Origin: Ruficoccus amylovorans
Lineage (GTDB): Bacteria; Verrucomicrobiota; Verrucomicrobiia; Opitutales; Cerasicoccaceae
Direction of reading: 5' to 3'
Length of the DNA stretch: 64,000 nucleotides
NCBI RefSeq assembly: GCF_014230085.1
Contig: NZ_JACHVB010000012.1
Coordinates: forward strand, 62,001 to 126,000
Shown here in pieces: positions 8,344-19,656 of this stretch (its first letter is position 1; each line of letters starts with the position of its first letter). The position numbers and the translations under genes were made by a program. The notes under the pieces were generated by a model. The model made no database searches. It was not told the DNA's origin and worked only from the letters and a program-made list of their open reading frames with translations.

Positions 8344-10245
8344 TCAGGCGATCGTGCTCGGCGTCGCCGTCTGCCGGTGGGTGAGGGTGACGGTGTTGGT
8401 CTGCTCCGGCGGCCACAGTTGTTGCGGCGCGCACTCCAGTTCGTCGATTTTTACCGACGGGTCCTGAAGGTGAAGGGCCAGCTTGCGCTTGAGGGTATGG
8501 AGGCGGGAGAGCAGCCCGGCGTAGCGGCGCTCAAGCACCTCCCATCCGAAGCTGCGGTAGTTCTCGTGCCAGAGGGATTCGTGAACGTCGCGCAACTGCC
8601 CGACCGAGTCGCTCAACTGCCCCAGCAGCGAATCGTGGACGCGGCGCAGTGTGGGTAAATCGTTGCTCTGGTAAGCCGGGCGCAGGGTCAGGTGGAGCTC
8701 GCACTTGGCGTGCAGGAGTGAGGCCACCCGGCGGGGAAAGTCCAGTCGCCGGTCCTCGTGGCGGTTGGCGGGAGCCTGGCTGAGTGCCTCGGCAGTGCGC
8801 TTGAAATGGGCGGCGTATTCGTGGCGTATCTGGTGTTCGAGAAAGCCCAGCAGCGGGTCGTGCCAGAAGATCCACTTGTCGGCGTTGGCCTCGTAGTCGG
8901 CGGGGCTGTCCGCCGGGACGAGGGCGGGAGCGCTGGCTGCGAACCAGGAGTCAAACGTGCCGTCCACGCTCCCGGCGAAGTTCGAGGCGTGCGTGCAGGC
9001 GGTATCCTCCGGGGATTGGCCGTAGGCGAGGTCTCCGAATATCTGCACGGCGGGCAGGGCCGAGAAAATGTCGCACTCCATACCGTCGTCGCCCCACATG
9101 GTAACGACGGCCTCGTCGAGCTTCTCGCGGCGGGCGGCGGCCATCCCGGCGTTCAGTGTGTCGCGGGAGTGGGGGAGCTGGGCCCAGAAGCGGTTCCAGG
9201 TCCAGATGCCCGCCGCGAAGAGCGGTTTTTTGCCCAACTGTCGGTGACGGTCGATCCACTCGTCGTAAAACTCGCTCTGCGTGTGGTAGTAGTCCCAATA
9301 GACAAGCTCAACGCCCTCGGGAATCTGCGCGCTGATGGCGGGGTCGATACGGGAGTCGCGGTCGTAGTAATTGTTGGTCCTCGAGCCGAGCCGGAAAAAC
9401 ATGTCGCTCCAGATCATGGGATGCAGGCCGTGGCGCTCGCAGGTGGCGACGGTTTTGCTCAGATGCTCGCAGAGGATTTCAAAGGGCGGGCGCAGGCCGT
9501 TCTTGAGCCGGTACAGGCCGGAGCCGATACCGTGCGCCTCGTCCATGCCGATGTGGATGCGTTTGCTGCGGAAGGGGGTCGAGGCTGCGACGATCATTTT
9601 TTCGACAAACGCGTCGGTCTCGTCATCCCCGGCCAGCAGGACGCCGTCGGTATCTTTCAGGTGCCGGTAGGTAGGCCACTGGAGCACCTGCTCAAGGTGA
9701 CCGAGCGTCTGGATGCACGGGATGACCTCCATCCCGAAGGCGGCGGCGTAGTTATCAATACTTTTCAACTCCTCCTGGCTGTAGCCGCCCCGAAAATAGC
9801 CGAAAACCGGTTCGCCGGGGATCTCGTAAGTGTCCTCGGTGTAGAGCATCACCTCGTTGATCCCGATCAACGCGAAGTGCCGGATGAGCTTCTTGACCGT
9901 ATCCAGGCGCAGGACGCCGTTGCGGGAGACATCGAGCATCGCCCCGAGCTGACGAAAACTGCTCTTCTGATCCAGCGAAACTGGCGGTAGCCCGGACTCC
10001 AACTGCCCCATCAAAATACCCAGCGCCCGGAAAGCCGCCGCCGGTTGCGAGTAGTAAATCCGGGCCGTCTGGCCCGGCCCGGCCTCAAACAGAAATCCGG
10101 GCCGTTCCGCCGGACAGGGGACGAACTCGATTTCCCAGCCTAGCGCGTTGTCGCGGAAGCGGTGCGGAAAAGCGCGTGTGATCTCATCGAGTGCGACTGA
10201 CAACTCCGCCGGAGTGCGACGAAAAATTTTGAGCGTGCGGGGCAT
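8344..10245 (-). CDS. GH20-like beta-N-acetylhexosaminidase family protein
   Basis: A 633-residue protein with an N-terminal alpha/beta domain (about 1-95) and a TIM barrel like glycoside hydrolase family 20, which removes terminal N-acetylhexosamines by substrate-assisted catalysis. The catalytic Asp-Glu pair is visible in I-H-I-G-M-D-E-A-H-G-I-G near residue 235, with barrel strands around R-N-G-V-L-R-L-D-T-V-K-K and E-V-I-P-C-I-Q-T-L-G-H. The C-terminal 200 residues are helical. The ATG at 10245 (MPRTLKIF) is preferred over an upstream frame extension that would overlap the gene above. No signal peptide is seen, implying cytosolic action on imported sugar. It follows the exported protein at 10292 by 46 bases, so both probably share the operator-bearing promoter at 10957-10975. 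Substrate is inferred. Confidence 0.82.
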   Translation of the reverse strand: MPRTLKIFRRTPAELSVALDEITRAFPHRFRDNALGWEIEFVPCPAERPGFLFEAGPGQTARIYYSQPAAAFRALGILMGQLESGLPPVSLDQKSSFRQLGAMLDVSRNGVLRLDTVKKLIRHFALIGINEVMLYTEDTYEIPGEPVFGYFRGGYSQEELKSIDNYAAAFGMEVIPCIQTLGHLEQVLQWPTYRHLKDTDGVLLAGDDETDAFVEKMIVAASTPFRSKRIHIGMDEAHGIGSGLYRLKNGLRPPFEILCEHLSKTVATCERHGLHPMIWSDMFFRLGSRTNNYYDRDSRIDPAISAQIPEGVELVYWDYYHTQSEFYDEWIDRHRQLGKKPLFAAGIWTWNRFWAQLPHSRDTLNAGMAAARREKLDEAVVTMWGDDGMECDIFSALPAVQIFGDLAYGQSPEDTACTHASNFAGSVDGTFDSWFAASAPALVPADSPADYEANADKWIFWHDPLLGFLEHQIRHEYAAHFKRTAEALSQAPANRHEDRRLDFPRRVASLLHAKCELHLTLRPAYQSNDLPTLRRVHDSLLGQLSDSVGQLRDVHESLWHENYRSFGWEVLERRYAGLLSRLHTLKRKLALHLQDPSVKIDELECAPQQLWPPEQTNTVTLTHRQTATPSTIA

Positions 10246-10291
10246 AAGAATGGAGAAAGTGACCTGTGTGCCGAATGCGTCTGCGGCAGGA

Positions 10292-10915
10292 TTACTGGAT
10301 GAGCGTGATCGACTCCACGTAGGCGTCCTGCCGGGTGTTGGCGGCTTCCTCGTTTTCAAAACGCAACCGCAGGTCACCGACCTTGGACAGGGTCTCGCTC
10401 AGGCTGCTGCGCCCACTCTCGCGTGTCATGGTTTTCTGTGACAGCGGGAGAATCAACGTGACGGTTTCGCCGCCGGGGACCGGTGGCATGGCGTCTGCGT
10501 CGGTCTGCCAGATCGTTTCATCCGCACCGCCGCGCACGACGAGGCGGAGCTTTGTGGGCGCGGAGGGCTGGCCGTAGCCGCCCGAGTCGTCCGCGAGCCG
10601 GAGCGTGACCGCGACCGACTGATAGCCGCTGAGGTCTTGCAGATTTTCCGGCAAGGCGGCCAGCCGCATGTTGGCATTGTTACCGGCGTCCCAGTTGAGC
10701 TGGAAAAGCGCGGCTTTGCCGCCTGTCTGGCTGGGAGCCTTGGACAGGGTGGCGGGACCGGCGGAGGCCGCGCTGCCGAATGCGTTCCAGCGCTTTTGCA
10801 GGTCGGCGGTAGTGGCGTAGCTATCAAAGTTTTCGAGGACGATTTCCGCCGCCTGGGTGGAAACGGTAAGCACGGAACACAGAATCAGTGCGAGAATAGG
10901 TGCGCTTAGCTTCAT
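10292..10915 (-). CDS. Secreted protein, paralogue of the PEP-CTERM protein at 17658 but without the sorting tail
   Basis: A 207-residue protein with a signal peptide (M-K-L-S-A-P-I-L-A-L...T-Q-A-A). The mature part is clearly homologous to the protein at 17658-18362: E-N-F-D-S-Y-A-T-T-A-D-L-Q-K-R-W-N-A-F-G against D-N-F-N-E-Y-S-T-T-G-E-L-Q-A-V-W-N-S-F-G, both with D-W-x-A-G-N-N-A-N-M-R and L-R-L-R-F-E-N near the end. It looks like a single carbohydrate-binding-like beta-sandwich. It ends at I-T-L-I-Q, exactly where the paralogue continues into its PEP-CTERM tail, so it should be released rather than surface-anchored. First gene of a two-gene minus-strand unit with the GH20-like hydrolase. 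Start ATG at 10915. Confidence 0.75.
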   Translation of the reverse strand: MKLSAPILALILCSVLTVSTQAAEIVLENFDSYATTADLQKRWNAFGSAASAGPATLSKAPSQTGGKAALFQLNWDAGNNANMRLAALPENLQDLSGYQSVAVTLRLADDSGGYGQPSAPTKLRLVVRGGADETIWQTDADAMPPVPGGETVTLILPLSQKTMTRESGRSSLSETLSKVGDLRLRFENEEAANTRQDAYVESITLIQ

Positions 10916-10956
10916 GGCCTTAATATAAATATATTCCCATCGTGTAATCAATTAAA

Positions 10957-10975
10957 AACTTCATTAAGTGAAGTT
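10957..10975. promoter_or_regulatory. Operator site A of the ROK-linked regulon
   Basis: AACTTCATTAAGTGAAGTT is a 19 bp dyad with perfect 7-base arms. It lies 42 bases before the secreted-protein gene read leftward. The same core TTCATTAAGTGAA recurs at 11060-11072 (reverse), 16193-16205 and 17595-17607. Confidence 0.75.
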
Positions 10976-11031
10976 ATTGGGGTGTGCGAATGCTTATGTG
11001 ATTAAAGCGAACATGCTCTAGCTGTTTTACG

Positions 11032-11060
11032 TTGACACAAGAGTACGGTTGTGAATTATT
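11032..11060 (+). promoter_or_regulatory. Candidate sigma-70 promoter for the SSS symporter
   Basis: A perfect -35 TTGACA at 11032-11037 is followed after 16 bases by AATTAT at 11054-11059, which abuts operator site B. This spacing places the operator over the -10 and start site, as expected for repression. The same arrangement (-35, ~17 bases, weak -10 merging into the operator) is seen before the ROK gene and the PEP-CTERM gene. Confidence 0.55.
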
Positions 11061-11074
11061 TCACTTAATGAAAT
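11058..11074. promoter_or_regulatory. Operator site B of the ROK-linked regulon
   Basis: ATTTCACTTAATGAAAT, a 17 bp dyad whose core TTCACTTAATGAA is the reverse complement of the core of sites A, C and D. It is placed just downstream of a consensus -35 box and about 95 bases before the symporter start codon. Confidence 0.75.
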
Positions 11075-11169
11075 AAATACCCTTGCACTGCCCCGTAATC
11101 ATTTGCCGTGGACGGCAGGCGGTACTAGGTGTGACTCTCCCCGACGCCGAAGCGAATAACATCTTTCCC

Positions 11170-13227
11170 ATGAATCTACACTGGATCGACTGGCTGATAA
11201 TCGGCCTGCTGCTGGCCTTCCTCATCGGCGTGGCCGTCCGCACGCATATGCTGACGCGTAGCGTGGCCGACTTCCTGGCGGGCAACCGTTGCGCGGGGCG
11301 CTATCTGCTGACGATGGCGGACGGGATGGCCGGGCTGGGGGCGATCTCCATCGCGGCGAATTTCGAGAAGTTCTACGAGGCTGGGTTCGCGGGCGCGTGG
11401 TGGGAGCAGGTGCTGGCGCCGCTCGGACTGATCCTGGCGTTGTCCGGGTTTGTCATCTATCGCTACCGCGAGACCCGCGCCCTGACCATGGCGCAGTTTT
11501 TCGAGATGCGCTACAGTCGCCGCTTCCGTGTCTTCGCCGGGATGCTGGCGTTTCTGTCGGGTGTGCTCAACTACGGGATATTCCCCGCCGTGACGGCGCG
11601 CTTTCTGGTTTACTTCTGCGGCTTGCCGGTGCGGATGGAGGTGCTGGGGTTTTCCTTTCCGACTATCGCACCGGTCATGTTTCTGTTGCTGGCGGTGGCG
11701 CTGACACTGACGCTGTCGGGGGGGCAGATTGCCGTCATGATTACGGATTTCTTCCAGGGGCAGATGGTGCAGATTACGATCCTGATCTGCTTCTTCGTGT
11801 TGATTTCGCAGATCAGTTGGACGGAGTTGATCGAGGGGCTGAAAATGGCCCCCGAGCAGGCTTCACGGCTGAACCCGTTCGAGCAGGAGGATACGAAGGG
11901 ATTCAACCCGGCGTTCTTTGTCATGATCGGGATTTTGAACGTGTACGGCTTCAAGGCCTGGCAGGGTTCGCAGGGCTACAACGCCGCGCCGAAAAGCCCG
12001 CACGAGGCACGCATGGCAAACATCCTGGGGATGTTCCGGGCACAGGTGTTGTTTCTGCTCTCGATGCTCTGTCCGTTGTTTGTTTTCGCCATGCTGCATC
12101 TGCCGCAGTTTTCCGGGCAGGCCGAGACGGTCAACGCCGTGCTGGCCACGATTGAAAACCCGCAGATACAGGAGCAGATGCGAGTGCCCGCCGGCTTATC
12201 TGAACTGCTTCCCATCGGCGTGATGGGGCTCTTTGTGGCAATGATTATTTCGGCGGCCGTTTCCACAGACGATACCTATCTGCACTCGTGGGGGTCGATT
12301 TTTATCCAGGATGTGGTCATGCCATTGCGCAAAAAACCGCTCAGCCCGAAGGCCCATATGTGGCTCCTGCGCGGGGCGATCGTTGGGGTGGCGGCCTTTG
12401 CATTCTGCTTTAGCCTGCTGTTCCCGCTGAACGAATACATCTACATGTACTTCCAGATCACGGGGGCGATTTACCTGGGTGGGGCCGGAGCGGTCATCCT
12501 TGGGGGGCTATACTGGAAACGCGGCTCGGTGGAGGGCGCGTGGGCGGCGATGATTATCGGCTCGGCGGTGGCGGTGTGCGGGATCGTGCTACGCAACATT
12601 ATCTGGCCATACCTGCTGCCGGACTGGAAGCTCGCGCATCCTGCGCAGGGGTGGCTGCAAGGGCTGCCCGAGGCGTTTCCGCTCGATGGGGTGCAGATGT
12701 CGCTGATCGCGGCCCTGTCGGCGGCGACAGCGTATGTGGCTGGTTCTCTGCTGTCGAAGCGCCCGCCGGTCAATATGGACAAGCTGTTGCACCGGGGGCA
12801 GTACGCGGTCGAGCAGGCCGGGCACCATCCGGCGGGTTCGGCTGAGCAGCCGGGGACGCTGGCCGTCCCGCGTCCGGCGAGTTGGAGAAAACGCGCCTAC
12901 CTGCTGCTGGGGATCAGCGCGGACTTCACGCGCGGTGACCGGTTCATATACCTGTTCGCCACTTGCTTCGCGCTGTTCTGGTTTGCCTGCTTCCTGGTCG
13001 GGACTCTCATCGCAACGACCACCGGCATCTCGGAGGAAAGCTGGATTCACTGGTGGGGCTTCAAGGTCGCGGTCACGATCCTGATCGCGCTGGTGGCAAC
13101 GGTCTGGTTCCTGATTGGGGGTATCCGCGACTTGGGGGATTTCGTGCACCATTTGAAAGCCGTCAAACGCGACGTCAATGATGATGGCTCCGTCCGCGGC
13201 GACGAGCATTTGCAGGAAAGCGATTAA
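11170..13227 (+). CDS. SSS-family sodium:solute symporter
   Basis: A 685-residue polytopic inner-membrane protein of the sodium:solute symporter family. It has about thirteen hydrophobic helices over residues 1-560, the early R-S-V-A-D-F-L-A-G-N-R-C-A-G-R-Y-L segment typical of the family, F-V-I-Y-R-Y-R-E-T-R-A-L-T-M-A-Q-F-F-E-M-R-Y in the fourth helix region and D-D-T-Y-L-H-S-W-G near residue 370. The C-terminal 140 residues form an extension with two further helices, shared with the paralogue at 49080-51113. It should import a sugar or related solute with sodium; position between GH20-like genes suggests amino sugars or their oligomers, which is inference. The ATG at 11170 gives a typical N-terminus. 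Operator site B lies upstream and a strong terminator downstream. Confidence 0.88.
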   Translation: MNLHWIDWLIIGLLLAFLIGVAVRTHMLTRSVADFLAGNRCAGRYLLTMADGMAGLGAISIAANFEKFYEAGFAGAWWEQVLAPLGLILALSGFVIYRYRETRALTMAQFFEMRYSRRFRVFAGMLAFLSGVLNYGIFPAVTARFLVYFCGLPVRMEVLGFSFPTIAPVMFLLLAVALTLTLSGGQIAVMITDFFQGQMVQITILICFFVLISQISWTELIEGLKMAPEQASRLNPFEQEDTKGFNPAFFVMIGILNVYGFKAWQGSQGYNAAPKSPHEARMANILGMFRAQVLFLLSMLCPLFVFAMLHLPQFSGQAETVNAVLATIENPQIQEQMRVPAGLSELLPIGVMGLFVAMIISAAVSTDDTYLHSWGSIFIQDVVMPLRKKPLSPKAHMWLLRGAIVGVAAFAFCFSLLFPLNEYIYMYFQITGAIYLGGAGAVILGGLYWKRGSVEGAWAAMIIGSAVAVCGIVLRNIIWPYLLPDWKLAHPAQGWLQGLPEAFPLDGVQMSLIAALSAATAYVAGSLLSKRPPVNMDKLLHRGQYAVEQAGHHPAGSAEQPGTLAVPRPASWRKRAYLLLGISADFTRGDRFIYLFATCFALFWFACFLVGTLIATTTGISEESWIHWWGFKVAVTILIALVATVWFLIGGIRDLGDFVHHLKAVKRDVNDDGSVRGDEHLQESD

Positions 13228-13256
13228 TACCGACTCCAGGTAGCTTTTAGGGTTAT

Positions 13257-13292
13257 GCGAGAGGGTGTTTTTTGAAAAAAACACCCTCTCGC
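13257..13292. terminator. Strong hairpin terminator after the symporter
   Basis: GCGAGAGGGTGTTTTTT is followed almost at once by AAAAAAACACCCTCTCGC, a perfect 17 bp inverted repeat with A/T-rich tip. It lies 30 bases after the symporter stop. The stem is symmetrical, so it could act in both directions, but the nearest minus-strand gene on the right ends at 13507. Confidence 0.8.
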
Positions 13293-13506
13293 GCTCTCCA
13301 AAAAACCTTTGAGCCAGAACTTCGTTCCTTCGCAAAAACGGCAACCTTCAAACCCGGAGCGAATCGGTTTTTAGGCGATGGCCAGGTTGGGACAACTGCC
13401 TTGTATCCTCAGCTCGATTCGGAGCAGATGGATAAACTACTTAGGCGAAGATCACTCTATGCCATTCGGTCTTTGAGCAGGCGGCTACGACTCTATTTAA
13501 ACCGCG

Positions 13507-14364
13507 CTAGCGGTCAGCAATGACGTTGGCATAGGTCACGGTGCCTTTTTTCATCAACTCCGTGTGGCCGTCCACAAAGGCCACGGGGACGGCACCGCGG
13601 GCACGGTAGCGGAGAGCTCCGCCGACACCATCGGCGTCCGATCCGGTCGGGATCAGCCGGTCCAGGGGTTCCGGGCTGTCGGAGGTGCGAAAGGCGGAAG
13701 GGTTGGAAAAGCTGGCGTTGGAGTAACTGCTGTTGCTGCGCTGCGTGCCCTCGCCGACGAGAATGACCTCGGTCGGCCTTAGGATTCCGGATTGGCGCAG
13801 GCGTGTGTCCCCGTTGCTGATGTCTGCGCAGATCAGGCCGTGCACGGAATAGGTGGAGGGGACGACACCCTGCCTGAAACTGCCGTCACGGACCGGGATT
13901 TCCGCCAGCGGCGAGACGAAAATGTTTCTGGCGCTCTCGCCGGAGCCGCTCTCCTGGTTGAGGTAGGGCGAAAGCTCGACTGTCCAGATGCGCTCGCCCT
14001 CGCCGGGCTTATAGAAGTAGCCGGGCGGGTAACGGCCCTCGTGCTCGGTGGCGTAGAGATTCAACGCGGTGGCAATCTGGCGCAGGTTGCTGATGGAGGT
14101 CGATTCCCGGGCCGACTGACGGGTGTACTGGACGACGGGGATGAGGATGGCGCTGAGGATGGCGATGACCGCAATCACCGTCAGCAGTTCAATCAGGCTG
14201 AAGGCGGGGGTGCAACTGCGGCCCGGTGCCGGGGCCGTCGTGCCGGAGAGACGCGTGCGCTGGTTGTTTCCGCGGATGTGGGTTTGCGCCTGTGATATGC
14301 GTGCCTGCAAGGTGGTGCCTGCTGCCGGTTTTGCTCGTTCAGCCTGTGTGCCTGTCATTGTCAT
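13507..14364 (-). CDS. Type II pseudopilin-like protein (prepilin N-methylation domain)
   Basis: A 285-residue protein with a class III prepilin signal, A-F-S-L-I-E-L-L-T-V-I-A-V-I-A, here preceded by an unusually long ~54-residue basic leader instead of the usual 5-25. Ala rather than Gly sits before the cleavage Phe. The mature part has the helix N-L-R-Q-I-A-T-A-L-N-L-Y-A-T-E-H-E-G-R-Y-P-P-G and the late F-V-D-G-H-T block found in the large pseudopilin-like family of Verrucomicrobiota and Planctomycetes, whose role is not well understood. The ATG at 14364 has a plausible TAAGG ribosome binding site eight bases upstream. It lies within the ROK-linked locus but no copy of the operator is seen upstream. 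Confidence 0.8.
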   Translation of the reverse strand: MTMTGTQAERAKPAAGTTLQARISQAQTHIRGNNQRTRLSGTTAPAPGRSCTPAFSLIELLTVIAVIAILSAILIPVVQYTRQSARESTSISNLRQIATALNLYATEHEGRYPPGYFYKPGEGERIWTVELSPYLNQESGSGESARNIFVSPLAEIPVRDGSFRQGVVPSTYSVHGLICADISNGDTRLRQSGILRPTEVILVGEGTQRSNSSYSNASFSNPSAFRTSDSPEPLDRLIPTGSDADGVGGALRYRARGAVPVAFVDGHTELMKKGTVTYANVIADR

Positions 14365-14648
14365 CGCCTTAATGCCTGTGTGGTTAAGTTTTCTGTTCGT
14401 TCGGGATTTACTGAGCGGGGCTCCAGGTTGTGTGGGAGTAGGTTGTTTATGCCTGAGAGTATGTGTGCTAGGATAAATGGGTCAAATGCGGGCGTGCATA
14501 TTCGAGAGTGGATGAAGTGGAGTCTTAGCGGAAAGCAGGCCCTGGGCCAATCCCGGCAAGCCGCTGCGTATGATGATCGGATTGTGTATGTGACCGATGG
14601 TAAAAAGGATGCGTTTTATGTTAATAAGCGGATTAAGCTCAGCGGAAT

Positions 14649-16100
14649 TCAGGATGCGCTCAGCGCGACATCTTCGGGCGTGGGAGCACAGGCGCTCAGG
14701 CTGTGCCGGAAGTTGATCAGCAGGTATTCGTTGCGTTCCCAAGGGAAGAGGGGGGTGTGCCTGCGCGGGTCGTCGGGGAAGCGTTCGTGTTCCCAGACCG
14801 TTTCGAGCCAGGCCAGCCAGTCGCGGCCTTCAGCGGCGAGGGTGTCGTCGAGGATCGTGCCTGGTCCCTGTTCGGCGAGAACGGCGCCTCGTCGGTAGAG
14901 GTAGGCCATCCAGCCGGTGAATTTACACAACGTCTCGTAGGCTCGCCGCTCGCGGCGGATGTGACCGGTGGCGCCACTCAAGCAATCAAAGACTTCGTTC
15001 CAGTCTTCGGACCGTTGCTGTAAGTGGGCGACGGTATTGCTGCCCGGCTCGGCTTTGAGGATGGCCAGGTATTCGTCGCGCCGGGGGGAAAGTTCAAACA
15101 TGCGGCACAGCGGTTGGACGAGATCGGGATGGGGGACAGCCCCGTGGAAATCCTCTACATGCGAACGCACGGAGCGCACAAGGGTGAGCGAACCGGTAGC
15201 CATCGCATCGGAGGCGACACGGAGTGCGGGCCACAGGCAGTCGTGCAGGTAGCGCATCGGCGTCCATATGGTTGTGAGGGCGCCGAGGATTTCGCCGCGT
15301 CCGCGCAGGGATTGGTAGGAGCACATGCGCTCGATGTTTGGCAGAGCGAAGTCGCCCGGCAGCGCCTGCTGGTCGTAAGTAATCAGCCCCGGGCAGAGCA
15401 GCGCCTGGAAGCCTTTATCCAGTACGGAGCGGGTGAGTCCGTCGGTGACTTCGGGCGCGTACTGCCAGAGCGCGATGACGATGTCGGCCGGGATGATATC
15501 CAGCAGTCCGGTGTCGTAACTGGCCTGATCGACCCACATGATCATTTTGCGTCCGAGCGCCTGAAGCTCTCCGTGGATGAAGCGGACGTACTCGGCGAAA
15601 ATATCCACCTCGCGACGTGTACGCAAAGCCTCCGCGGTCAGCGGATGGCCGCCGAGGTTGACCTCGTCGAGCCCGACGTGGATGTACTCGGAGGGGAAAA
15701 TGTCCGTGAGCTCGCGCAGGAGTTTCTGCATCAGTGCGCGTGTGTCCGGGTGCAAGGGACAGATCGCGGTAAAGTCGTCGTCGCTCTCCTTCAAGTGGTG
15801 GTACGCGGGGTGGCGGGTCAGGTAACGCGAGTGGCCGAGCGTTTCCAATTCGGGGATGAGCGTGACACCCCGGTCCTGCGCGTAGCGGACCAGCGCCCGC
15901 ATCTCGTCCCCCGAGTAGGCATGTGGATCTCCGATGCCGGGCACCCCCGTGAAATCCAGGCTGCACCCCTGGTCGTCGCTGAAGTGCCACAGCAGGGTAT
16001 TCATCCCTTGCCCGGCACAAAAATCGATGAGCCGCTCGTAGAACTCGCGTTTCTCCAGACAGCGGGCGCTGTCGATCATAAATCCGTGTATCTTGCTCAT
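14649..16100 (-). CDS. GH20-like glycoside hydrolase (second copy)
   Basis: A 483-residue soluble protein with a family 20-like TIM barrel starting almost at the N-terminus (G-F-M-I-D-S-A-R, then N-T-L-L-W-H-F-S-D-D-Q-G, T-L-I-P-E-L-E-T-L-G-H). The catalytic Asp-Glu pair is in Y-I-H-V-G-L-D-E-V-N-L-G-G near residue 140. It lacks the N-terminal alpha/beta domain of typical GH20 enzymes and has no signal peptide. It may process N-acetylhexosamine-containing products in the cytosol. It is divergent from the ROK regulator, and operator site C lies between the two (about 93 bases before this start), so both are likely controlled by that site. It shares only barrel-level similarity with the hydrolase at 8344. 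Confidence 0.78.
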   Translation of the reverse strand: MSKIHGFMIDSARCLEKREFYERLIDFCAGQGMNTLLWHFSDDQGCSLDFTGVPGIGDPHAYSGDEMRALVRYAQDRGVTLIPELETLGHSRYLTRHPAYHHLKESDDDFTAICPLHPDTRALMQKLLRELTDIFPSEYIHVGLDEVNLGGHPLTAEALRTRREVDIFAEYVRFIHGELQALGRKMIMWVDQASYDTGLLDIIPADIVIALWQYAPEVTDGLTRSVLDKGFQALLCPGLITYDQQALPGDFALPNIERMCSYQSLRGRGEILGALTTIWTPMRYLHDCLWPALRVASDAMATGSLTLVRSVRSHVEDFHGAVPHPDLVQPLCRMFELSPRRDEYLAILKAEPGSNTVAHLQQRSEDWNEVFDCLSGATGHIRRERRAYETLCKFTGWMAYLYRRGAVLAEQGPGTILDDTLAAEGRDWLAWLETVWEHERFPDDPRRHTPLFPWERNEYLLINFRHSLSACAPTPEDVALSAS

Positions 16101-16192
16101 ACCAAAGAGAAGAGGAGGCGCTGGGCCGGAGCGCTTTCCGCGCCTTGTGATTACTATTCAAAGTTGAAAAGCGGAATCGGTCAACTAAATAT

Positions 16193-16205
16193 TTCATTAA
16201 GTGAA
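16193..16205. promoter_or_regulatory. Operator site C between GH20-like gene and ROK repressor
   Basis: Core TTCATTAAGTGAA within the 17-base ATTTCATTAAGTGAACT (16191-16207). A rightward -35-like TTGAAA lies at 16164-16169, so the site would cover the -10/start region of the ROK promoter, giving autoregulation. Confidence 0.72.
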
Positions 16206-16317
16206 CTTTTAGGTGGCGGGATTTGGATGGCCTGGAAATCGGAAGGTATGGGTGATTGCTCCTCTGGGTGAACTATTAATCTTGCGCCGGTGGGAGTCCT
16301 GGCGGAGAACTGAAGGG

Positions 16318-17466
16318 ATGGAGATTGTGGATCGTAAGCGTGTGGCGCCCGCGGTGGAGCCACGTGAGGGCGGTAAGCCGATGAATAACCGCAAGCAGGC
16401 TCAGGTCGCCAACCGGCTGCGTGTCCTGCGGCTGATTTATTCGCGCGAAGAGTACTCCCAGCGGCGGATTGCCGCGGAGACGCATATGCAGGCCTCCACG
16501 ATCTCGAACATCATCGCGGAGCTTATCAGCTCGGGCCTGGTGGTGGAAGGCGAGGCGCGGGAGAGCCGACGGGTCGGCCCGAAGGAAACCCTGCTGCGCA
16601 TCAATCCCCAGGCCGCCTGTTCGGTGGGGATCAACTTCCACGCCGCTGCGCACGAGATATGTGTTTTTGACGGGGACGGCACCTTGCTGGCGGAGGCTGT
16701 CTTTGAAAAGGACTGGGATGAAAAGATGCCCGCCCGTCTGCCCGCGCAGATCAAGTCGCTGGCCCGAAAGGCGGGACTGGACATGGCGCAACTCTGTGGG
16801 GTTGGCGTGTCCGTGCCCGGTGTCGTCAACCGCGAGAGGGGGACGGTGATTCTGTCGCGAGCGCTGAACCTGCAGAACTATCCGATGCAGGAGCACCTGC
16901 AAAGCAAGCTGAAGCTTCCGGTCTTCGTTGATCGCAACGTCAACTACGGCAGTTACTACGAGCAGCACATGAATCCGGGCGAGTATTGGTACAACTCCGG
17001 CTATTTGCTGGTGAAGCGCAATCGGGTTGTCTCGCTGGGCTCGCCCTATTCGCTGGGGCTGGCCATCACCGTCAACGGCGAGATCTACCGCGGGGCCAAT
17101 TACGCGGCGGGCGAATTGGAGGCCGTGGGAGAGGAGGATGCGGTCCTGATTCCCTCGGAACTACGAAAAATGGGCCTGCGCGGGCACGACGATGCCACAG
17201 TCTTTTTCTCCCGACTGGGGCGGCATCTGGCCTCGGTTGTCAATCTGCTCGACATCGGCCACCTTGTCGTGGCGACCGAGTATGCCTCTATGGAGGGGGA
17301 GTATTTCAACGTGCTCGCGGATGCCTTGCGCGGCTACCTGATCCCGATTTCAAATCGCGTCTTCGACATTCGCTTCGCCGAAAACGGGCTGGCCGATCTC
17401 TCCAAAGGTGCCGCGCTCGCGGTCCTGCACCACTCGCTGGAGACGGCCTTGGCACGGGCGTATTGA
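16318..17466 (+). CDS. ROK-family transcriptional repressor
   Basis: A 382-residue regulator with an N-terminal winged helix-turn-helix (N-R-L-R-V-L-R-L-I-Y...Q-R-R-I-A-A-E-T-H-M-Q-A-S-T-I-S-N-I-I) followed by an ROK sugar-kinase-like domain (G-V-G-V-S-V-P-G-V-V-N near 185, V-F-V-D-R-N-V-N-Y-G, A-A-G-E-L-E). The family represses sugar genes and is released by a sugar or sugar phosphate. The Cys-rich zinc motif of typical ROK proteins (C-x-C-G-x2-G-C-x-E) is absent after A-A-G-E-L, an oddity. I give the ATG at 16318; ATG 16381, with GAGGG upstream, is an equally good start. It sits centrally in the locus and is the natural candidate to bind the four TTCATTAAGTGAA sites. Confidence 0.85.
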   Translation: MEIVDRKRVAPAVEPREGGKPMNNRKQAQVANRLRVLRLIYSREEYSQRRIAAETHMQASTISNIIAELISSGLVVEGEARESRRVGPKETLLRINPQAACSVGINFHAAAHEICVFDGDGTLLAEAVFEKDWDEKMPARLPAQIKSLARKAGLDMAQLCGVGVSVPGVVNRERGTVILSRALNLQNYPMQEHLQSKLKLPVFVDRNVNYGSYYEQHMNPGEYWYNSGYLLVKRNRVVSLGSPYSLGLAITVNGEIYRGANYAAGELEAVGEEDAVLIPSELRKMGLRGHDDATVFFSRLGRHLASVVNLLDIGHLVVATEYASMEGEYFNVLADALRGYLIPISNRVFDIRFAENGLADLSKGAALAVLHHSLETALARAY

Positions 17467-17566
17467 GAGCAGTCCGGTTTAACCTCTCTCGGCCTCAAGC
17501 CCCCGGTATGCACATGGAGAGCGAGGCTGCCCGGTCAGCCACAGCTGGGAAATTTTGAGAAAAAAG

Positions 17567-17595
17567 TTGACGGAATGAAAAGTTGGTGAAATACT
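17567..17595 (+). promoter_or_regulatory. Candidate sigma-70 promoter of the PEP-CTERM gene
   Basis: TTGACG at 17567-17572, a 17-base spacer, then AATACT at 17590-17595, which merges into operator site D. The geometry matches that before the symporter. Confidence 0.55.
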
Positions 17596-17610
17596 TCATT
17601 AAGTGAAGTA
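17592..17610. promoter_or_regulatory. Operator site D of the ROK-linked regulon
   Basis: TACTTCATTAAGTGAAGTA, a 19 bp dyad with perfect 7-base arms, 48 bases before the PEP-CTERM protein start. It shares ACTTCATTAAGTGAAGT exactly (17 bases) with site A. Confidence 0.78.
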
Positions 17611-17657
17611 AATCACGATTCTCTCTGATCTCCCAAAACCATCAACGCAAGACGTAT

Positions 17658-18362
17658 ATGAACAAGCTGTTAACATGCTCATTGTTCGTGGCTGTGGCCA
17701 CTGCCGGAAATCTGTTCTCCCAGGTTACAATCGATAATTTCAACGAGTACTCGACGACGGGCGAGTTGCAGGCGGTCTGGAACTCATTCGGCGGGGCGGC
17801 CTCGGCCGGAGCGGCGGTTTTGGCTCCCGGCGAGGGCGTGGGCGGCTCGAACGCGGCCTTGTACTATCTCGACTGGAGCGCGGGTAATAATGCCAATATG
17901 CGTATGGCCACTGTCCCGTCCGCTGTGCAGGATCTTAGCGCTGCCACCTCGGTTGAAGTCACGCTCTATCTCGTGACGCGGGATGGTTATGACGCTCCGG
18001 CTTCCGACACCCAGTTGCGGCTGGCTATCCAGGGCGGGACGAGCAGCTCGATCTGGCAGACGACAAGTGCGTACGCGGTCGATTTGAACTCAGCCAGCTA
18101 CACCACGATCAGCTTTAACCTGAACACGACGGAAATGGAACGGGTCGATGGCAGCGGATCACTCAGCGATACGCTGGCGGCGATCACGAGCATCCGCCTG
18201 CGCTTTGAAAACGATCAGCAGAGCAATGTGCGGCAGGATGTCTATGTCGATTCCATCAGCGCCGTCATGGTCCCGGAACCCGGCGAATACGCCGGCATGG
18301 CGGGCCTGGGGACGGTTCTGCTGGTGGCCTTCCTCCGCTGGCGCGGGCGCCGTCAGCGGTAG
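17658..18362 (+). CDS. PEP-CTERM sorting domain protein (ROK locus)
   Basis: A 234-residue exported protein: signal peptide at 1-21, a beta-sandwich-like body homologous to the protein at 10292, and a C-terminal PEP-CTERM signal (V-P-E-P-G-E-Y, then a hydrophobic helix and the basic end R-W-R-G-R-R-Q-R). Such tails direct exosortase-dependent processing and surface display. The body has D-W-S-A-G-N-N-A-N-M-R-M and repeated L-R-L strands and may bind a polysaccharide; that is inference. It is directly downstream of operator site D, so it is probably induced together with the symporter and GH20-like enzymes. Confidence 0.85.
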   Translation: MNKLLTCSLFVAVATAGNLFSQVTIDNFNEYSTTGELQAVWNSFGGAASAGAAVLAPGEGVGGSNAALYYLDWSAGNNANMRMATVPSAVQDLSAATSVEVTLYLVTRDGYDAPASDTQLRLAIQGGTSSSIWQTTSAYAVDLNSASYTTISFNLNTTEMERVDGSGSLSDTLAAITSIRLRFENDQQSNVRQDVYVDSISAVMVPEPGEYAGMAGLGTVLLVAFLRWRGRRQR

Positions 18363-18573
18363 GCCGGAGTGGTCCGGTTTCGCTGCCCGGTTAATCGGGG
18401 GCGGGGCGATGCCGACTCAGGATTATCCTGTCGGTTCCACCTGAGATTTCGAATCAAGCAAGTTGAGCTTCGATCCGCGTTGCGGGAAGAAGCTTGGGAC
18501 CGCGTGCGCTCAGAACAAATGTAGAGCGGGCGCTGTCCGACACTGATGTAAAAACACCATTCACCCTAGAGAG

Positions 18574-19656
18574 ATGAACGAACGATTTCCTTTTGACCGT
18601 ACCGAAGTGCTCCGCTTAGGCGGAAAAGCCCGAACCCTCTGCGCGCTGGCTGCGCTGGCGGTATTGCCGGTGGTGGCGTCTGCTGCCAGCCCGGTGACGG
18701 CGGTGGCTACTGATTCCACTCCCGTGGGGGAGAACGGGGTGGCGTCGGCTGGGGAGACCCTGATCGCGCCCGGCGCGAACCTCGGGATGTGGGTGTGGCG
18801 GGCGGAGCCCTTGTCCGACCCTCAGGAGCGTGAAGCCCTGATTGCGTTTTGCCGTGAGCTCGGGATTTCCCGGATATTTGTGCAGGTCCGCTTCGATAAG
18901 GAGGCGGGCGCGTATCAACTTTCCAATACGGAGGACTGGGTGGCGCTGATGGCGATGGCCCGTGAGGCCGGAATCAGCGTCGAGGCGCTGGATGGGGCCG
19001 GTGACATGGGGTTCGCGGCGAACAGGGCCGACACACTGGCCCGCCTCGACGCCGTGCTGGCCTTTCATGCGGCCCAGCCGGATGAGGCCGGGTTCAGCGG
19101 GTTTCACTACGACATCGAGCCGTACGTGACGAAGCGCTGGAAGACCTCCGACAAGAAGCAGGTCGCGCTCGAACTGCTGGAGACGATGCGGGCCATCGAC
19201 GACAAGGTAAAGGCCGTCGACCCGGAGCTGACCATCACGCACGACATCCCGTTCTGGTACAACGGACGGGAGGAACTGGCGGTCGAATTTGGGGGGAGCA
19301 CGAAGTTTTTGGATGAGCACATCCAGGACCTTTCCGACGGCATCGGGATCATGTCCTACCGGACGAAAATGACCGGCGGTAACTCGGTCGTGGACATTTC
19401 CAGCGAAGAGTTGGACTACGCCCGCCAGACCGGCGGCTCCGTTTACCTGTCGCTGGAGACGGTCACGCTGGATGAGACGCCCAGCATTACCTTCCACGGA
19501 CGCGAGGGCAGCGAGTTGATCGCCGCTGTGCGCGAGCTCAATGCCGCGCTTGCCGGTGATCCCGCTTTTGCGGGGATAAACCTGCACTGCTACCGGACCC
19601 TGCGGCCGATGCTTGAGCCCAAGCCTCCGGCAACTGACAGTGCGTCGGAGGGCTGA
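18574..19656 (+). CDS. Exported TIM-barrel glycosidase-like protein, function unknown
   Basis: A 360-residue protein with a long signal peptide (basic start, hydrophobic L-C-A-L-A-A-L-A-V-L-P-V-V-A, cleavage after about residue 38). The mature part starts L-G-M-W-V-W-R and shows alternating strands and helices of a TIM barrel: I-S-R-I-F-V-Q-V-R-F, A-G-I-S-V-E-A-L-D-G-A-G-D, F-S-G-F-H-Y-D-I-E-P-Y, I-T-H-D-I-P-F-W-Y, I-G-I-M-S-Y-R. The F-H-Y-D-I-E-P-Y strand is like the catalytic acid-bearing strand of GH18/GH-D type barrels. I do not recognise a named family. It stands alone 211 bases after the PEP-CTERM gene, without an operator copy. Possibly a periplasmic glycan-acting enzyme. Confidence 0.7.
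   Translation: MNERFPFDRTEVLRLGGKARTLCALAALAVLPVVASAASPVTAVATDSTPVGENGVASAGETLIAPGANLGMWVWRAEPLSDPQEREALIAFCRELGISRIFVQVRFDKEAGAYQLSNTEDWVALMAMAREAGISVEALDGAGDMGFAANRADTLARLDAVLAFHAAQPDEAGFSGFHYDIEPYVTKRWKTSDKKQVALELLETMRAIDDKVKAVDPELTITHDIPFWYNGREELAVEFGGSTKFLDEHIQDLSDGIGIMSYRTKMTGGNSVVDISSEELDYARQTGGSVYLSLETVTLDETPSITFHGREGSELIAAVRELNAALAGDPAFAGINLHCYRTLRPMLEPKPPATDSASEG

Follow-up and report, generated by a model that had tools for sequence, protein, structure and literature searches.

Within the window, by which we mean the whole stretch of 64,000 nucleotides of Ruficoccus amylovorans DNA that was analysed, a gene for a ROK-family regulator lies among genes for two GH20 enzymes, a sodium:solute (SSS) symporter, a pseudopilin-like protein, two CBM-like proteins (SECR and PEPC) and a TIM-barrel protein, and four copies of one palindromic operator are interspersed with them (Table 1). 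The start codon of the ROK gene is uncertain (16213, 16318 or 16381).

Table 1. Genes and operator sites of the ROK locus, in window coordinates
Feature	Position	Strand	Remarks
GH20C-type (GcnA-like) beta-N-acetylhexosaminidase	8344..10245	-	second gene of operon behind site 1
SECR, exported soluble CBM-like beta-sandwich protein	10292..10915	-	hydrophobic N-terminal segment
Operator site 1	10957..10975	-	core 10960-10972 (+); upstream of SECR-GH20C
Operator site 2	11058..11074	+	core 11060-11072 (-); upstream of SSS gene
Sodium:solute (SSS) symporter	11170..13227	+	start taken as ATG 11170, ORF from 11083
Pseudopilin-like exported protein	13507..14364	-	prepilin N-terminus, DUF1559; PF07596, TIGR02532
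GH20 beta-N-acetylhexosaminidase	14649..16100	-	divergent from ROK gene
Operator site 3	16191..16207	+	core 16193-16205 (+); between divergent GH20 and ROK
ROK-family regulator	16318..17466	+	winged HTH + ROK domain; Pfam ROK, MarR_2
Operator site 4	17592..17610	+	core 17595-17607 (+); upstream of PEP-CTERM gene
PEPC, putatively PEP-CTERM-anchored CBM-like beta-sandwich protein	17658..18362	+	AlphaFold, Foldseek
Exported TIM-barrel glycoside-hydrolase-like protein	18574..19656	+	conserved neighbour of CBM-like genes

The initial annotation had described four operator copies, each in a promoter region and with none elsewhere in the window, and had proposed a genome-wide search for the motif. 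That search, run as exact and one-mismatch pattern scans of 4,506,184 bases (a genome 97.8% complete), found TTCATTAAGTGAA exactly four times, always in a promoter and all inside one 6.65-kb stretch of the locus; the four annotated cores are thus the sole exact matches, and the motif is confined to the locus rather than scattered over unrelated genes. Between 0.024 (iid) and 0.035 (first-order Markov) exact core matches were expected by chance, and the symmetric pattern TTCAYTNARTGAA gave four genomic sites versus none for the reversed control, which together rule out a chance motif. About 87% of the locus is coding sequence, and all four sites fall outside the assigned genes. A single one-mismatch copy occurs elsewhere in the genome (C35:183146, TTCATTAACTGAA); it precedes an unrelated ORF, its symmetry is broken, and it was not counted as a site of the regulon.

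The placement of the sites relative to promoter elements bears on how they might act. For three of them, a -35 box followed by the operator at the -10 position had been claimed, and this arrangement holds for sites 2, 3 and 4. Site 2 directly follows TTGACA-16-AATTAT, which precedes 11060; site 3 overlaps the -10, with TTGAAA-18-AATATT toward the ROK gene running into 16193; and site 4 abuts TTGACG-17-AATACT, which runs into 17595. Three of the four sites therefore overlap or abut a -10 and are preceded, at 28-29 nt, by a TTGA box. The pattern recurs in relatives with TTGAC 23-29 nt away; of 14 exact sites, 9 have TTGAC at this distance upstream on one strand. This is the geometry of the NagR repressor, 10 of whose 11 operators overlap promoter elements (PMC9599254), and it argues for repression. 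Site 1 (10960), however, lies just upstream of the -35 TTGATT (10951) of its promoter (TTGATT-18-TATATT, minus strand), and for the GH20 gene at site 3 the operator is likewise upstream of the likely -35; simple occlusion is thus not the explanation for every promoter. As activators exist among ROK factors (PMC9599254), these two placements would also suit a ROK protein that activates, or both activates and represses, but given the arrangement at the other promoters we consider this unlikely.

Cerasicoccus frondis NBRC 105381, C. maritimus NBRC 105382 and three MAGs of the same family share this locus, and the palindrome TTCAYTNARTGAA again precedes the same transcription units. Orthologues of the target genes occur in every related ROK locus, the operator stands at or beside the ROK gene, and the ROK locus holds 15 of the 20 exact sites counted over the six family genomes that have the ROK orthologue. 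At equivalent places lacking exact copies, one-mismatch copies were found (the SECR and SSS promoters in JB024; the PEPC promoter in Co_bin.226 and 5_bin.45). Strong matches to the CBM-like family (E<1e-70) were restricted to 7 of 273 genomes, exactly those whose ROK orthologue is close (at least 38% identical); most lie only a few kb from that gene, and none lies farther off than about 13 kb. A more distant Opitutia locus, whose ROK protein is 39% identical, held no exact site; its copies all carry one or two mismatches. It might be argued that a different transcription factor, encoded elsewhere, reads the palindrome and simply counts the ROK gene among its targets, as sites persist in three family genomes without a ROK orthologue (two in G054, two in G069 and eight in G083). 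However, one genome of the same genus that lacks the ROK orthologue (G020) has no TTCAYTNARTGAA site, most of the sites inspected in relatives beyond the ROK locus fall inside open reading frames, the operator accompanies the ROK gene in a locus that behaves as a single conserved unit, and ROK regulators usually have palindromic operators (PMC9599254); we regard such a factor as very improbable. The genome-wide search, together with the conservation of operator, ROK gene and targets across the family, lends strong support to the compact, one-operator ROK regulon of the initial annotation. The targets originally listed are right, but the list lacked the pseudopilin gene and the TIM-barrel gene, so that the regulon would extend over 8344-19656.

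The regulator itself has a ROK domain (PF00480, 55.7 bits against a gathering score of 22.9) and an N-terminal winged helix-turn-helix (PF12802, MarR_2, 29.5 bits against 27). This is the architecture of Escherichia coli NagC and Mlc, and the NagC model NF047937 is the best NCBIfam match, but at 62.7 bits it lies far under the equivalog cut-off of 650, and identity with NagC was rejected. A zinc motif, CxCGxxGC, is typical of the ROK family and is taken as dispensable for a regulator. On motif inspection, it is absent from the window protein, unlike in NagC and Mlc, and also from six orthologues and from a second ROK paralogue in the genome. The DxGGT phosphate loop of ROK sugar kinases is also missing from the window protein, and DRNVN occupies what we take to be the position of the catalytic Asp; a sugar kinase was rejected on these grounds, and with neither zinc nor kinase motifs the protein should be a pure regulator. 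Its closest solved sequence relative is Listeria Lmo0178 (5f7p, 5f7q and 5f7r; 5f7r E=6e-20), from another phylum, the alignment being confined to the N-terminal two thirds. The second paralogue adjoins nagBA elsewhere in the genome (contig C60), where a pattern search found no operator; the last catabolic step thus lies outside the control of this switch.

The larger GH20 enzyme combines catalytic and GH20C C-terminal domains (PF00728 and PF18088, both above cut-off, the latter at 143.9 bits) and carries its catalytic pair in HIGMDEA. It matches the GcnA and GH20C exo-beta-N-acetylglucosaminidases over nearly its full length, C-terminal domain included, with GcnA (2epk, E=1.5e-93) and pneumococcal GH20C (5a69) as nearest solved chains; unlike them, it is accompanied in its regulon by another, shorter GH20. 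The latter (PF00728, 102 bits) matches solved GH20 relatives and has its Asp-Glu pair in HVGLDE. Both have low N-terminal hydrophobicity and no signal peptide, and so are probably cytoplasmic, acting after uptake rather than at the surface. The symporter scores 62.6 bits for Pfam SSF (gathering score 22.8), falls below the cut-off of TIGR00813 and weakly matches the sodium/glucose cotransporter 2xq2; its orthologues in two related ROK loci are 83-85% identical, while the Cerasicoccus locus has an ABC sugar importer in its place. The initial annotation had read the locus as a system for glycan sensing, surface display, uptake and hydrolysis. Sensing and uptake are plausible and gain strength from the nagA, nagB and ABC importer genes in the loci of relatives, which point to GlcNAc-type oligosaccharides as the substrate; surface display and hydrolysis need changing, as the GH20 enzymes lack signal peptides and the exported components are instead the two CBM-like paralogues, the TIM-barrel protein and the pseudopilin.

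SECR and PEPC are paralogous (42% identity over 201 aa, E=7e-50), and SECR orthologues are present in related ROK loci. No Pfam match and no PDB sequence match was found for this family. The AlphaFold model of PEPC (pLDDT 89) matches CBM11, CBM28, CBM4 and CBM16 folds in Foldseek at a TM of about 0.5, a predicted likeness to CBMs in fold alone, and the fold does not fix the ligand. The PEP-CTERM HMM is weak on PEPC (14.4 bits against a cut-off of 16) and exceeds the cut-off on two orthologues (22.8 and 24.6), and the genome has three exosortase matches. The TIM-barrel protein, present in every related ROK locus, has a profile match to 10yv_A of Cellulomonas fimi (E=3.9e-14) and a well-modelled core (pLDDT about 90) for which Foldseek returned Cwp19, GH191 and GH18; it has no Pfam glycoside hydrolase family match, so that its likeness to GH191 and GH18 is in fold only. 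The pseudopilin gene, downstream of the shorter GH20 on the same strand, recurs in six of six related ROK loci. GH20 enzymes tolerate several HexNAc linkages, and the TIM-barrel fold resembles that of GH191 alpha-galactosaminidase as well as GH18; with a CBM-like fold open as to ligand, the glycan may carry HexNAc as a mere side group (a glycoprotein, a mucin-like or a bacterial envelope glycan) rather than being a chitin-type oligosaccharide. The nagA and nagB genes of relatives show only that GlcNAc-6-P is an end product and do not decide the matter; we consider a side-group substrate a serious possibility, somewhat short of even, and one that would leave the mechanism unaffected.

Taken together, our results suggest, with a probability of roughly 85%, that 8344-19656 is a single-regulator catabolic regulon in which the ROK protein reads the four operators and which serves the use of an amino-sugar glycan. 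The sequence itself shows the operator, the gene content, their joint conservation and the overlap with promoters. In the mechanism that we infer, each of the four promoters, among them the one that the ROK gene shares with the divergent GH20 gene, would be bound by the ROK protein, presumably as a dimer, at its copy of TTCAYTNARTGAA (here TTCATTAAGTGAA). At three of them the bound protein would mask the -10/start region and keep RNA polymerase out. Its release, by an amino-sugar oligosaccharide or a GlcNAc-type product, would switch on four units: SECR-GH20C, the SSS symporter, GH20-pseudopilin with the divergent ROK gene, and PEPC with the TIM-barrel protein. Outside the cytoplasm, the glycan may then be captured and trimmed by the exported CBM-like pair, of which one member would be free and the other held by a PEP-CTERM anchor, and by the TIM-barrel protein, likewise exported. 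Small glycosides would enter through the symporter (in Cerasicoccus, the ABC importer), and HexNAc would be freed for NagA/NagB by the two GH20 enzymes in the cytoplasm.

By analogy, the locus is in kind a local ROK regulon like those of Thermotoga ChiR or Bifidobacterium NagR. Through a single confirmed site, ChiR controls nagAB as well as a transporter and a hydrolase for chitobiose, and chitobiose abolishes its binding (PMC3750489). The homologous Cerasicoccus locus, with a sugar ABC importer, hydrolases and nagAB, resembles it; in contrast, the locus described here is served by four sites and encodes two GH20 enzymes, a pseudopilin and a CBM-like pair specific to the family; an SSS symporter takes the place of the ABC importer, and nagBA lie beyond the regulon. 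NagR is a ROK repressor of the use of GlcNAc-containing oligosaccharides, with a palindromic operator overlapping promoter elements, and acts as a global regulator of 29 genes through 11 sites (PMC9599254). The resemblance is one of layout, and our regulon is local, with four sites in one locus. A limited literature search found no experimentally studied ROK regulon of this kind in Verrucomicrobiota.

In summary, a single conserved locus contains the operator, its presumed regulator and every target, and this confinement allows function to be assigned, by regulon membership, to two undescribed families of exported proteins. We tentatively propose, at rather less than even odds, that the CBM-like paralogues, one soluble and one with a predicted PEP-CTERM anchor, make up a new family of glycan-capturing proteins that in this verrucomicrobial family, together with the pseudopilin, does the work of SusD-type binding proteins, and that the TIM-barrel protein is the first member of a new glycoside hydrolase family, with the same glycan as its target. 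Across the family, one transporter type appears to have replaced another, SSS or ABC, under a constant operator.

A ROK-regulon reading of the locus is very likely from its sequence (see the table). The initial annotation had proposed a self-contained ROK-repressor regulon at 8344-18362, with four operator copies and none elsewhere in the window. All four copies proved real and exact, and a motif search of the whole genome (4.5 Mb, 64 contigs, completeness 97.8%) found no other exact match to TTCATTAAGTGAA and a single site with one mismatch; the chance expectation of an exact match, from window composition, is 0.024 (iid) or 0.035 (first-order Markov). The symmetric form TTCAYTNARTGAA has 4 genome sites versus 0 for the reversed control. 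When up to two mismatches were allowed, the genome search gave 29 matches versus 21 in the control, a small excess, which indicates that the operator signal does not extend beyond these four copies. None of the four cores overlaps an assigned gene, in a locus that is about 87% coding, and site 3 stays upstream of the ROK gene even with a start at GTG 16213. The genes originally named do belong to the predicted regulon; its extent was underestimated, as the TIM-barrel gene lies outside that interval.

Features of the candidate ROK regulon (window positions)
Feature	Position	Strand	Basis
GH20C-type hexosaminidase	8344-10245		Pfam; GcnA 2epk, E=1.5e-93
SECR, exported soluble CBM-like protein	10292-10915		
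Operator core 1, TTCATTAAGTGAA	10960-10972	+	exact match
Operator core 2, TTCATTAAGTGAA	11060-11072	-	exact match
SSS symporter	11170-13227		profile search; weak PDB match
DUF1559/prepilin-type protein	13507-14364		Pfam/NCBIfam profiles
GH20	14649-16100		Pfam; solved relatives
Operator core 3, TTCATTAAGTGAA	16193-16205	+	exact match
ROK protein, winged HTH	16318-17466		Pfam; nearest PDB chain Lmo0178
Operator core 4, TTCATTAAGTGAA	17595-17607	+	exact match
PEPC, putatively PEP-CTERM-anchored CBM-like protein	17658-18362		
Exported TIM-barrel protein	18574-19656		predicted structure; fold matches Cwp19, GH191, GH18

Promoters were called by a consensus scan for -35 and -10 boxes. TTGACA-16-AATTAT ends at 11059, one base ahead of core 2, while TTGAAA-18-AATATT and TTGACG-17-AATACT end on the first bases of cores 3 (16193) and 4 (17595). 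In 9 of 14 exact sites, taken from the window and from five related loci, one strand carries TTGAC 23-29 nt ahead of the core, orthologous sites being non-independent. This spacing is the predicted geometry of a repressor that would cover the -10/start region. Simple occlusion does not fit the GH20 side of site 3, nor site 1, where the -35 box of a minus-strand promoter (TTGATT-18-TATATT, 10951-10922) has core 1 on its upstream side.

The putative regulator is assigned to the ROK family by its Pfam score; CxCGxxGC and DxGGT were absent from it and from its orthologues in a motif check. Identity as a NagC equivalog was considered and rejected. Thermotoga ChiR, also a ROK regulator, controls a chitobiose transporter, a hydrolase and nagAB, and is released by chitobiose (PMC3750489). 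Bifidobacterium NagR is a ROK repressor that responds to GlcNAc and its phosphates and whose palindromic operators overlap promoter elements (PMC9599254). The present locus may resemble both in its mode of working, a likeness and not an established orthology to either.

Close ROK orthologues occur in Verrucomicrobiota bacterium JB024, Co_bin.226, Cerasicoccus frondis, C. maritimus and 5_bin.45, and a more distant one in an Opitutia MAG. In all but the Opitutia locus, GH20, GH20C, two CBM-like paralogues, the TIM-barrel protein and the pseudopilin are encoded near ROK. In related loci the operator reads TTCATTNAATGAA or TTCACTCAATGAA and stands both in the promoter of ROK and ahead of SECR or PEPC genes, with a third copy ahead of PEPC in both Cerasicoccus genomes. 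The six family genomes that carry ROK have 20 exact sites between them, 15 of which fall inside the ROK locus. Copies with one mismatch precede SECR, SSS and a pilus-like gene in JB024, while Co_bin.226 and 5_bin.45 share one, TTCATTCAATGGA, ahead of PEPC; in 5_bin.45 the ROK-GH20 copy is degenerate (two mismatches). A pilus-like protein of about 1030 aa adjoins the regulon in relatives (L074:13438-16536 in JB024, L076:6685-9786 in Cerasicoccus) and has roughly 20 scattered paralogues in the window genome, none in this locus.

Both GH20 enzymes keep the Asp-Glu pair and are probably cytoplasmic, because neither has the hydrophobic N-terminal segment present in SECR, PEPC and the TIM-barrel protein. 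The predicted glycan hydrolysis step is thus probably intracellular. The Cerasicoccus locus also holds nagB and nagA (the latter by PDB, E=3e-34; TIGR00221 172 bits, below cut-off) and a sugar ABC importer comprising a binding-protein/permease fusion, a permease and a UgpC/MalK-type ATPase. In this importer (L076:11085-15701, L077:11085-15698) the fusion is unusual, at 914 aa, and the second permease has a long N-terminal extension with a weak Glyco_hydro_42 match. JB024 has nagB and a nagA-like gene at the equivalent place. In the window genome such genes lie at G000:C60:85832-88716 (L065), immediately ahead of the gene for a second ROK protein, a paralogue that shares 33-34% identity with the one in the window; TTCAYTNARTGAA is absent there, so that this is likely a separate GlcNAc regulon. 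Ribokinase-like and nucleoside-hydrolase-like genes are nearby. Gene content makes GlcNAc-type oligosaccharides the candidate substrate and suggests that SSS and ABC transporters are alternatives under one switch.

SECR and PEPC are paralogues (42% identity), and the predicted PEPC structure is a beta-sandwich (pLDDT 89) whose fold matches are a mannanase CBM, CBM11, CBM28, CBM4 and CBM16 (TM about 0.4-0.5). This CBM-like family has no sequence match among PDB chains or Pfam families. Among 273 genomes of the order, the seven that have a close ROK orthologue, and no others, gave strong matches to it (E<1e-70), on ROK's contig and in most cases only a few kb away from ROK; a phylum-wide sample gave no additional strong match. 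In two CBM-like paralogues of the Opitutia locus (L079:1996-2841, L079:7791-8594), an extra C-terminal domain of about 70 aa replaces the PEP-CTERM anchor. The TIM-barrel protein has a profile match to a Cellulomonas fimi structure, 10yv, the one solved relative, labelled putative GH97; members of its family occur across the phylum, in many cases within proteins of 600-1200 aa. The CBM-like pair and the exported TIM-barrel protein are the least known parts of the regulon, and the latter might merit classification as a separate family.
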